Shown: one piece after another, positions 28,911 through 31,656 of the stretch
Layout: each line of letters opens with the position of its first letter
How positions within the stretch are numbered: position 1 is the stretch's first letter
NCBI GenBank assembly: GCA_019750465.1
Contig: JAIEOP010000401.1
Coordinates: 1-38,435 of the forward strand
DNA: 38,435 nucleotides
Reading direction: 5' to 3'
From: Acetobacteraceae bacterium
Lineage (GTDB): Bacteria; Pseudomonadota; Alphaproteobacteria; Acetobacterales; Acetobacteraceae
The notes under the pieces: model-generated
Told to the model about the DNA's origin: nothing
What the model saw: the letters and a program-made list of their open reading frames with translations, nothing else
The model's database searches: none
Made by a program: the position numbers and the translations under genes

Positions 28911-28930
28911 AAAAGGTCCGAAAAGGACCT
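28911..28930 (-). terminator. Rho-independent terminator of the NDUFA9-like gene
   Basis: Read on the minus strand, AGGTCC, a 5-base loop (TTTTC) and GGACCT form a 6-bp hairpin (28930-28914) followed by TTTTAA. The stop codon (28931-28929) overlaps the left arm, so the message ends directly after the gene. Confidence 0.6.
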
Positions 28931-29891
28931 ATATAGCGGCAGCCCTTGGCCGGCGGCCGCCGCCGGGCCGGAACCGCGCCAGGTAGCCCGGCACCACGGC
29001 CTCCATCGCCTTCGGGGCGATCCCAAGCTCGGCCAGCCCGTGCGCGTCGTTCGCCACCACGTTGTCGCGCCGCAGCATCAGCAGCTGGTCCCGGGTCAGC
29101 GGCGGGGTGGGCAGCAGCTCGCCCAGCCGTGCCTGCAGGGCAGCGATCCCATCCGGGATCGCGACCAGCGGCCGGCGGTGGCCGGTCACCTCCAGCACGT
29201 AGCGCAGCAGCTCCCGGAAGCTCGCCACGCGGGGTCCGCCCAGCTCGTAGGTCCGGCCCGGCGCGTCCGCGCGTTCCGCCGCGGCGAGCACGGCATCGGC
29301 CACGTCGCCGACATAGACGGGCTGGAACCGCGTATCGCCGTGGATCACCGGCATCACGGGCAGCATCCGCGCCAGCCCGGCGAAGCGGTTGAAGAAGGCA
29401 TCCTCCGGCCCGAAGACGATGGAGGGGCGGAGGATCGTGGCGTCCGGGAAGGCCGCGCGCACCGCCGCCTCGCCCTCGGCCTTGCTGCGGCCATAGGCGG
29501 AGGGGCTGGCCGGATCGGCGCCGATCGCCGAGACATGCACCAGCCGCGCGACCCCGGCCGCTGCGGACAGGCGCGCGACGCGGCCCGCGCCCTCGGCATG
29601 GATGCGCCGGAAGTCACCGGCGCGGCGCTCGTGCAGGATGCCGACGAGGTTCACCACCAGGTGCGCGCCGGCCACCGCCCGCGCCACCGCGCGCTCATCG
29701 GTGACGCCGGCGGCGAGCGGGACGATCTGCCCGACCCGCCCCTGGGTCTGCAGGAAGTGCGCGCCGGAGGGGTTGGTCACGGCGACGCGCACCACCCAGT
29801 CGGCATTCGCCAGGCGCTGCACGACGTAGCGGCCGATGAAGCCGGAGCCCCCGAACACCGTCGCCACCTTCCGCACCATCTCGCCGCGCAT
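28929..29891 (-). CDS. NDUFA9-like NAD(P)-binding protein (atypical SDR)
   Basis: 320 residues from the ATG at 29891, chosen because AGGGG lies 9 bases upstream; ATGs at 29936, 29924, 29900 and 29879 are in frame. The Rossmann start is KVATVFGGSGFIGRYVVQRLA. LVVNLVGILHERRAGDFRRIHAEGAGRVA and VHVSAIGADPASPSAYGRSKAEGE (with YxxxK) follow, then ILRPSIVFGPEDAFFNRFA and FQPVYVGDVADAVLAA. This set is typical of the NDUFA9 family, an accessory subunit of complex I in mitochondria and some Alphaproteobacteria. It is not next to nuo genes here. A role in complex I or quinone biology is inference. Confidence 0.85.
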   Translation of the reverse strand: MRGEMVRKVATVFGGSGFIGRYVVQRLANADWVVRVAVTNPSGAHFLQTQGRVGQIVPLAAGVTDERAVARAVAGAHLVVNLVGILHERRAGDFRRIHAEGAGRVARLSAAAGVARLVHVSAIGADPASPSAYGRSKAEGEAAVRAAFPDATILRPSIVFGPEDAFFNRFAGLARMLPVMPVIHGDTRFQPVYVGDVADAVLAAAERADAPGRTYELGGPRVASFRELLRYVLEVTGHRRPLVAIPDGIAALQARLGELLPTPPLTRDQLLMLRRDNVVANDAHGLAELGIAPKAMEAVVPGYLARFRPGGGRRPRAAAI

Positions 29892-29965
29892 CCGCCGCAT
29901 CCCCTGCCGAATGGCCGCGACCATATGGGTCCGCACGGCCGGCGCAAGGGCAGGGCACGCCGCGC

Positions 29966-30015: not shown

Positions 30016-30102
30016 GCCCAGGTGGCGGAATTGGTAGACGCGCAGGTTTCAGGTACCTGTGGCCGCAAGGTCGTGAAGGTTCGAGTCCTTTCCTGGGCAC
30101 CA
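30016..30102 (+). tRNA. tRNA-Leu (anticodon CAG)
   Basis: An 87-base class II tRNA. The acceptor arms are GCCCAGG (30016) and CCTGGGC, followed by an encoded ACCA ending at 30102. The D arm carries the Leu-type GGCGGAATTGGTAGACGC. The anticodon arm is CAGGT-TTCAGGT-ACCTG, so the loop gives CAG and reads CUG. A long variable arm (GGCCGCAAGGTCG) and the T arm with GGTTCGAGTCC complete the cloverleaf. The last A of CCA is also the A of an ATG that opens the RNase D frame. Confidence 0.96.
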
Positions 30103-30167
30103 TGTCCTCTCCCAACGCCGCACCCGCGCAGGGCCTGCTGCTGGTGCCTCTCCTGGGGCGCCACGCC

Positions 30168-30791
30168 GTGATCCACCTGCACCGCCACGACCTGCCGGAG
30201 GGTCTCGACCTCGGCCGGATGGTCGCCGTCGATACCGAGACGATGGGGCTGAACCCGCACCGCGACCGGCTCTGCCTGGTGCAGCTCTCCGCCGGCGACG
30301 GTCATGCGCATCTGGTGCAGATCGTGCCGCCCGCGCTGGGGGGCCACGGCGCCGACTGCCCGAACCTGAAGCGCCTGCTGGCCGACCCGGCCACCACCAA
30401 GCTGCTGCACTTCGCCCGCTTCGACTGCGCGGCGGTGCGCCTGCATCTCGGCGTGGAGATGGCGCCGGTGGTCTGCACCAAGGTCGCGGCGAAGCTGGTG
30501 CGCACCTTCACCGACCGGCACGGGCTGAAGGATCTCTGCAAGGAACTGCTGGGCATCGACCTCTCGAAGCAGCAGCAGAGCTCGGACTGGGGAGCGCCGG
30601 AGCTGACAGCCGAGCAGCAGGCCTATGCGGCGTCCGACGTGCTGCACCTGCACGCGCTCTGGGCGCGGCTGGAGGGATTGCTGCAGCGCGAGGGGCGGCT
30701 GGAGCTGGCACAGGCCGTGTTCCGCTTCCTGCCAACGCGCGGCGCGCTGGACCTGCTGGGCTACGAGGATCCGGACATACTGAGTCACTAA
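30168..30791 (+). CDS. rnd: Short ribonuclease D (DEDDy 3'-5' exonuclease)
   Basis: A single-domain RNase D-like exonuclease without HRDC domains. The DEDDy residues are visible: D22 and E24 in VAVDTETMGL, the Asp in LHFARFDCAAV, and Tyr/Asp in AYAASDVLHLHAL. The frame is open from an ATG at 30102 (229 residues), but that ATG uses the last base of the tRNA CCA and would be destroyed on tRNA maturation. The GTG at 30168 gives 207 residues beginning IHLHRHDLPEGLDLG, matching the usual size and start of alphaproteobacterial members. RNase D trims tRNA 3' ends, so the position directly behind tRNA-Leu is striking. The TAA stop lies inside a large hairpin. Confidence 0.88.
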   Translation: MIHLHRHDLPEGLDLGRMVAVDTETMGLNPHRDRLCLVQLSAGDGHAHLVQIVPPALGGHGADCPNLKRLLADPATTKLLHFARFDCAAVRLHLGVEMAPVVCTKVAAKLVRTFTDRHGLKDLCKELLGIDLSKQQQSSDWGAPELTAEQQAYAASDVLHLHALWARLEGLLQREGRLELAQAVFRFLPTRGALDLLGYEDPDILSH

Positions 30792-30863
30792 GCAGGCTTT
30801 CATGGCTTGGCCCACACATTGTGTGGTCCAATCCATTGTAGCGAAAGCCTGCTTAGGTTTTTT
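30788..30863 (+). terminator. Long near-perfect hairpin with T-run behind rnd (hairpin 1)
   Basis: A perfect 14-bp outer stem pairs CTAAGCAGGCTTTC (30788-30801) with GAAAGCCTGCTTAG (30843-30856). Inside it, ATGG, TTGG and CCACACA pair with TGTGTGG, CCAA and CCAT, separated only by single C/T mismatches and one 6-base bulge (30837-30842). TTTTTT follows at 30858-30863, so on the plus strand it should terminate rnd transcription. The outer arms begin and end with TA, as for a small insertion at a TA site. The rnd stop codon is inside the left arm. Confidence 0.75.
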
Positions 30864-30870
30864 GTCGTGC

Positions 30871-30890
30871 GCAAACCTCCAGAGGTTTGC
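30871..30890. repeat. Perfect 9-bp hairpin (hairpin 2)
   Basis: GCAAACCTC (30871-30879) pairs with GAGGTTTGC (30882-30890) across a 2-base centre. No T-run follows on either strand. It lies 8 bases after the T-run of hairpin 1. Confidence 0.7.
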
Positions 30891-30891
30891 T

Positions 30892-30949
30892 TAGGGCAGC
30901 CTCCGACCGGATGGAACGCGCGCGCTCCATCCGGTCGGAGGCTGCTCTA
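30892..30949. repeat. Perfect 20-bp hairpin (hairpin 3)
   Basis: GCAGCCTCCGACCGGATGGA (30896-30915) is perfectly complementary to 30926-30945. The loop is ten bases of alternating GC. The stem extends outward to TTAGG/CTCTAG with one G-T pair. At 20 perfect pairs this is one of the strongest structures in the window. It has no T-run. Confidence 0.75.
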
Positions 30950-30974
30950 GTATCTGTGTCTTCTGGCGCAGGAC

Positions 30975-31025
30975 ATCCGACCAGGTGATTCCATCTTACT
31001 GGATATTGCTCCAGAGTGGTCCGAT
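30975..31025. repeat. Imperfect hairpin with inner stem (hairpin 4)
   Basis: ATCCGACCA (30975-30983) pairs with TGGTCCGAT (31017-31025) with one mismatch. Inside, CTGGA (30999-31003) pairs with TCCAG (31010-31014). TCCGACC is shared with hairpin 3, which hints that the two derive from related sequence. Confidence 0.45.
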
Positions 31026-31170
31026 CCTGCCACTCGAGTTCCAAGTGCCAGGTGAATTGCCCCGCCAACCCAACGCCCAATGGGCCGGTCCGATGGGCAC
31101 CGCACTGGCGGCGAACTTCGGAACCGGGACACTGGTCGGCGACGCCCTGGGTGCCGAGTCATGCCAATGC

Positions 31171-31282
31171 GCGTTGATGTTGCCACATCAACGCCCCTCG
31201 GACGCCGCGCATCCGCGCGCCCTGGCTTCGTGCCAGTGGGCGCGGGCCGCGTTCGCGGCCTCGGCGCGCCATCCGGCGCGCC
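31171..31282. repeat. Four further stem-loops in the intergenic island
   Basis: GCGTTGATGT/ACATCAACGC (31171-31194) is a perfect 10-bp stem with a 4-base loop. CTGGC/GCCAG is at 31222-31236. GGCCGCG/CGCGGCC is at 31245-31260 (7 bp). GGCGCGCC occurs twice, at 31263-31270 and 31275-31282, self-complementary and able to pair across a 4-base loop. Between 31026 and 31170 I see no gene and no clear structure. Confidence 0.55.
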
Positions 31283-31311
31283 GCATGGGTCGACAACTCG
31301 GCGCGTTGGTA

Positions 31312-31656
31312 TCAAGCCAGGGAGGCATTGCGGCAGGCCTTGGCGCTTTCCTTGCGTTCGTCATTCGGCAGTGCGGTGAAGGCGACGCGAGAGGCATCGT
31401 CTGTCGCGGCGTGGAGGCATGGCCATCCGGTGCCGCGCTTGCTGCTCCGGCCACGGCGGCCGCCGGTGGCGCGATGACCGACACCGCTGATCGGGCCGCG
31501 CTGCTCGATGCCGATACGGATCGGCCCGCCTGGATGCCCGCACTCGCAGCGGAGGATGCGCGGCCGGCGATCGCGGGCGGCCGGATGGCGGCCCTGGCCG
31601 CACCGCAGCACCACCGTGCAGGCGGTGGAGCGCCGGCGACCGGTGCGCCGCGCCAT
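31312..31656 (-). pseudogene. IS481-family transposase remnant
   Basis: A 114-codon frame on the minus strand carries the central part of an IS481-type DDE transposase. GHPGGPIRIGIEQRG corresponds to the usual PGELIHIDIKKLG, then ISGVGHRATGGRRGRSSKRG, then GTGWPCLHAATDDASRVAFTA (usual GWEYVHVAIDDASRVAF), then LPNDERKESAKA. The first catalytic Asp is replaced by Gly (IRIGIE). The frame ends at a TGA soon after ERKESAKA, and the third catalytic region (TDNG...RPYTPRTNGKAER) is absent downstream. The N-terminal helix-turn-helix is degraded; traces such as RAGMAD occur upstream in another phase. It is a dead fragment; no terminal repeats were found. Confidence 0.8.

Follow-up and report, generated by a model that had tools for sequence, protein, structure and literature searches.

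What are the four strong hairpins that lie directly behind an rnd-type exonuclease gene in an Acetobacteraceae genome, and do they belong together? The region is part of a window of 38,435 nt, the whole stretch of DNA that we analyzed, from a draft genome of 6.04 Mb in 522 contigs. An earlier note had treated the hairpins as a single set that fit no known class of feature, and had offered three readings: nested small palindromic insertions resembling MITEs, a structured RNA of the rnd locus, or folded ends left by a neighboring insertion sequence. All four hairpins were found where the note had placed them, and the 251-nt stretch that holds them folds very stably on both strands (z = -11.0 on the plus strand and -11.1 on the minus strand, with 0 of 200 shuffles as good). 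The perfect outer stem of the first hairpin, its overlap with the rnd stop codon, and the trailing run of six T's were confirmed (Table 1), as were the 9-bp hairpin and the imperfect fourth; the third, described as a perfect 20 bp, instead has longer, slightly imperfect arms. The set exists, but it is not a unit. The hairpins group two and two, as two repeats meeting at a TA rather than as one structure. Our results indicate that positions 30789-31013 are very probably two abutting non-autonomous mini-transposons (MITEs) of the IS630 (Tc1/mariner) type, here called elements A and B.

Table 1. Features of the hairpin region behind rnd, in window coordinates.
Feature	Position	Strand	Evidence and details
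rnd-type 3'-5' exonuclease gene	30102..30791	+	Pfam PF01612, E 1e-34; stop TAA (30789-30791) supplied by left end of element A
Element A, left TA to right TA; very probable IS630-type MITE with two hairpins	30789..30893	+	about 40 places in own genome; also in relatives
Hairpin 1 of A (C-TA-AGCAGG...CCTGCT-TA-G)	30788..30856	+	69 nt; 14-bp perfect outer stem; fold
Linker of A, 14 nt, TTTTTT at 30858-30863	30857..30870	+	unpaired in all A-type variants folded but two, where pairing is local and weak
Hairpin 2 of A (GCAAACCTC-CA-GAGGTTTGC)	30871..30890	+	9 bp, perfect; stem search; fold
TA common to A and B	30892..30893	.	boundaries of both families
Element B, left TA to decayed right TA (CA); very probable IS630-type MITE with two hairpins	30892..31013	+	about 8 copies in own genome
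Hairpin 1 of B (third hairpin)	30892..30949	+	29-nt arms, 93% complementary
Hairpin 2 of B, decayed (fourth hairpin, imperfect)	30963..31014	+	intact copies have CTAGAGCA...TGCTCTAG with GATTC (GANTC) in the loop; compared with L044, L045 and L046

The similarity search of the genome and its relatives that the note had proposed brought up multi-copy families in the genome itself and further copies in relatives. Query bases 9-116 and 113-235 behaved as independent repeats in the genome. When flanks were compared, copies of A ended sharply at C-TA-AGCA ... TGCT-TA-G and copies of B at C-TA-GAGCA ... TGCTC-TA-G. The own-genome sequence examined holds 36 distinct full copies of A, which falls into two subfamilies (A and A2) that are about 83% alike. 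Both A and B are short and non-coding, with many dispersed and sharp-ended copies, as expected of MITEs. Two more families are likewise bounded by CTAG, namely C (106 bp; L115:17177-17282), which has the same plan as A and B, and D (156 bp; L112:10370-10525). Family C is commoner than A, with 7 occurrences in the 395 kb sampled (about 100 genome-wide by extrapolation), and 27 of 150 Acetobacteraceae genomes contained it. A or parts of it matched genomes from seven genera of the family, including about 58 matches in one genome of another genus; the named organisms with its hairpin-2 end are Roseomonas acroporae and an uncultured Acetobacteraceae bacterium. Searches of a plasmid collection with A plus B and with C plus D gave no match. 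When the ends were compared for terminal inverted repeats, B had TAGAGCANNNTCCGA and C had TAGAGCGNNNTGCGTT at both ends, and the two ends of A shared only TAAGCA plus scattered matches.

Some copies hint at units larger or smaller than a single element. Wherever C meets D, at four junctions (L112:10268-10525, L044:1251-1508, L015:1237-1492, and L045:1645-1901), D comes after C and the relative orientation is unchanged, and the outer left flanks of the four pairs differ; C and D may travel together as a unit of about 258 bp. An isolated hairpin 2 of B (51 bp; L116:19534-19584) has CTAG on both sides and abuts a C, and single hairpins may be units of their own.

The way in which copies sit in the genome points to insertion at TA with duplication of that dinucleotide, typically within CTAG. 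Specifically, one copy of A lies within an older A2-type copy (L018), whose halves flank it, split at an internal CTAG with TA at both junctions. Another copy (L027) has A-TA...TA-T in place of C-TA...TA-G, which identifies TA as the constant part of the flanks. Furthermore, 18 of the 36 copies of A abut another such element with one TA in common, in arrays that reach C-D-B-D and C-D-A; the window is an A-B array, and A2-B and B-A2 occur in L013 and L047, respectively. In a congener (G035), the insertion point of the copy at L026 is free of any element, with an 81% alignment over 227 nt in which a few bases differ at the point itself. The first of the three readings in the note is favored by how many copies there are and how exactly they end, by the TA pattern at their targets, by insertions that nest or abut, by this empty site, and by the IS630 ends described below.

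At rnd itself, we infer that the gene formerly ended in CTAG. A relative (L079) has an rnd that ends CAC TAG G, which is the expected insertion site; the orthologue in the congener G035 ends in TGA rather than TAG, and the earlier CTAG of the rnd in the window is for that reason a reconstruction. Element A would have entered a CTAG whose C closed the final His codon and whose TAG was the stop, with duplication of TA. Since A continues C-TA with an A, the stop would have become TAA, leaving Rnd whole. B lies at the TA of the far end of A, which accounts for the single TA common to both; A followed by B is the presumed order of insertion.

Which enzyme could have moved these elements? IS630-family elements are established to insert at TA with its duplication (PMC2170065). 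In our data, C-type left ends run into an IS630-family transposase at contig ends of three genomes (G018, G015, and G005). An insertion sequence of about 1.06 kb in G018 (L262) has TAGAGC ends like those of B, and one of about 1.13 kb in G270 (L253), which sits in CTAG, has C-TA-AGCAG at both ends and encodes HTH and DDE_3 domains (Pfam) in two overlapping frames. An IS630 composite transposon is reportedly credited with a preference for CTAG in the title of a 1991 paper by Tenzen and Ohtsubo, to which PMC2170065 refers. With the first six bases fixed and the remainder shuffled, the left end of C matched its insertion sequence at z = 5.9, the right end of B matched L262 at z = 4.3, and the left end of A matched the ends of L253 at z = 3.7-5.2. 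For related left ends in G059, G205, and G012, the z values were about 4-5.6. The right end of A reached only z = 1.1-2.1 against any IS630 end, having little in common beyond TAAGCA. The link to IS630 is thus strong for C, good for B, and, for A, good at the left end only, as judged from the sequences. Within the own draft genome, we found a broken transposase (L052) related to L253 and no intact partner with the ends of A or B; its IS630 places, searched for A, B, or C ends, had adjacent insertions only. In the mechanism that we envisage, a transposase of the IS630 family, supplied in trans, would excise an element at its TA-bounded ends and insert it into another CTAG. Mobilization in trans is presumed here, as is any role for the hairpins.

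Other enzymes deserve consideration. If the elements moved in single-stranded form, with a Y1 (HUH) transposase recognizing the end hairpins as in IS200/IS605 derivatives and REP sequences, this would explain why A-type elements keep a hairpin at each end while the sequence changes between genera. It is nevertheless an improbable account, since the elements have TA on both sides at CTAG and share their ends with IS630 elements, and for C and B the IS630 partners largely rule it out. Moreover, Y1_Tnp (PF01797) had 0 matches in the own draft genome, under a search to which control genomes responded, and the same result speaks against REP or BIME sequences served by a Y1 transposase (RAYT). We regard as equally improbable the proposal that the partner of A is some other DDE insertion sequence duplicating TA at YTAR, such as one of the IS5/IS711 type. 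IS711 does duplicate TA in YTAR (PMC2266754), and D has an end near a DDE_Tnp_1 transposase of the own genome (L141), but the IS630 element of G270 has A-type ends, and a search of 25 DDE_Tnp_1 places in the own genome turned up adjacent insertions only, with no end of type A, B, or C attributable to the DDE_Tnp_1 elements themselves. An IS5/IS711-type partner for families A to C was dropped once IS630 elements with similar ends had been found. The D end in question (20 bp; L141:2094-2113, C520) follows a short DDE_Tnp_1 frame at a distance of about 130 bp, and D may come from another family, outside IS630, that likewise occupies CTAG sites.

The least credible alternative assigns the region to rnd itself, as a structured non-coding RNA or as a structure for 3'-end processing or termination. 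It could appeal to the very stable folding and to the T run behind hairpin 1, but it is already largely refuted by the occurrence of A and B separately and in either order, by the absence of the T run in A2, G059, G205b, and others, by the absence of the hairpins behind rnd in 15 of 15 relatives read downstream of the gene (loci on the plus strand), by an Rfam 15 scan with only tRNA and chance-level matches, and by promoter and terminator scans that found nothing. An intrinsic terminator with a T run kept among copies was rejected for the same reasons, being neither called by the scan nor conserved among variants. A may nonetheless happen to terminate rnd transcripts.

Even if the hairpins belong to IS630-type MITEs, their constancy calls for comment, as a mariner-type MITE can do without hairpins at both ends, a point against this reading. 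Across several genera, the A-type plan is constant: a hairpin, a linker of 14-17 nt, a second hairpin, and TTAG or CTAG, for a total of 105-107 nt. Hairpin sequences differ between genera and hairpin lengths trade off, at about 69 + 20 nt in our A, G270, G059, and G017 and about 42 + 46 nt in G205 and G012. The covariance check that the note had suggested gave a divided answer. Among 38 copies of A from two genera, 22 cells had two-sided changes, compared with 1-7 when pairing partners were slid, whereas the number of pairs with such changes (5) fell within the range of shuffles (4.0 +- 0.9); covariation within this set of close copies is therefore modest. We tentatively entertain the idea that, in a class of alphaproteobacterial mini-elements driven by IS630 (these families and perhaps CIR repeats), the hairpins have a function, folded DNA or RNA being needed for mobility or for harmless residence. 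If so, the two-arm plan, the linker, and the constant A-type length would have been kept despite changes in the arms because folding is needed.

The elements are ordinary in kind; their architecture and their habit of piling up are unusual. Contrary to the note, close known classes exist in RUP-like MITEs and CIR repeats. RUP of Streptococcus pneumoniae, a MITE of IS630-Spn1, is a known IS630-linked repeat of 107 bp, non-coding and present in about a hundred copies, with a TA target and terminal repeats that resemble an IS630-family element (PMC2229807). By description, A and B share its size class, its lack of coding sequence, its TA target, and its IS630-like ends, in a host of a different phylum. 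Separate arms with a linker are given in that review only for the CIR repeats (CcrM-associated intergenic; Chen and Shapiro 2003) of Caulobacter and Brucella and not for RUP. CIR repeats are about 110 bp with two long arms and a linker, TA ends, GANTC in the loop, no gene inside, and many copies; as of 2007, their mobility mechanism was still to be ascertained and no transposase partner was known (PMC2229807). Compared by description, A, B, and C agree with them in length (about 110 bp), arms and linker, TA ends, freedom from genes, copy number, and residence in alphaproteobacteria, and B (GATTC) and C (GAATC) also have GANTC in the loop. A and A2 do not have GANTC, and for this reason we call A CIR-like in plan without filing it as a CIR repeat. 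Unlike CIR repeats, with no known transposase partner, these repeats have ends that are carried by IS630 elements. Further likenesses, again by description and in other hosts, are the palindromic Bru-RS1/2 repeats of Brucella, which are hot spots for an insertion sequence that duplicates TA in YTAR (PMC2266754), and MITEPsy1 of Pseudomonas syringae (100 bp), which shares the CTAG site (CTAG or YTAA) but is associated with ISPsy2 and a 4-nt duplication (PMC3189936).

The choice of target has consequences for where elements are found. In the 395 kb of own genome sampled, CTAG is about fivefold rarer than its parts predict (76 observed versus 384), and by our count about one-sixth of the listed sites are element ends. 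With all families pooled, and for flanks with a clear coding signal, which is our codon-usage score and not a set of gene calls, a gene ended in frame at the TAA or TAG of the element in 24 of 49 flanks, compared with 10 of 76 at element-free CTAGs (Fisher p = 2e-5); counted per site, the figures were 23 of 63 and 10 of 60 (p = 0.015). Flanks of related copies are only partly independent in these statistics. Selection against elements that land within genes would by itself suffice to explain the excess at stop codons.

Our analysis draws attention to the two-arm architecture, the common-TA arrays, and a possible link to CIR repeats. IS630-family transposases emerge as the probable partners of two-armed palindromic repeats in alphaproteobacteria, with TA in CTAG as the target, and the mobility question for CIR repeats becomes directly testable if they and these families prove related. 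The results further suggest a way for such elements to pile up in a compact genome, by aiming at a rare site that their own ends renew for the next element. At a C-TAG stop codon, inserted elements would leave a stop behind.

GANTC is the CcrM methylation site. Three occurrences fall within about 60 bp of the left ends in two IS630 elements (L232 and L262), and the site is also present in the loops of B and C, compared with 0.8 per kb in the own genome; methylation might regulate these elements. As to the surroundings in the window, the note's third reading, of folded ends left by a neighboring insertion sequence, was not supported; the presumed remnant had no Pfam match, and the stretch holds a different dispersed repeat. 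This G+C-rich repeat (window 31158-31315), which adjoins B, is 83-97% alike in L145, L115, L027, L024, L135, and L020 and is not CTAG-bounded in the window. Upstream of rnd, ARAGORN called a tRNA-Arg (tcg) of 96 bases at 28976-29071, within the reverse-strand open reading frame 28929-29936, which is probably a false positive.
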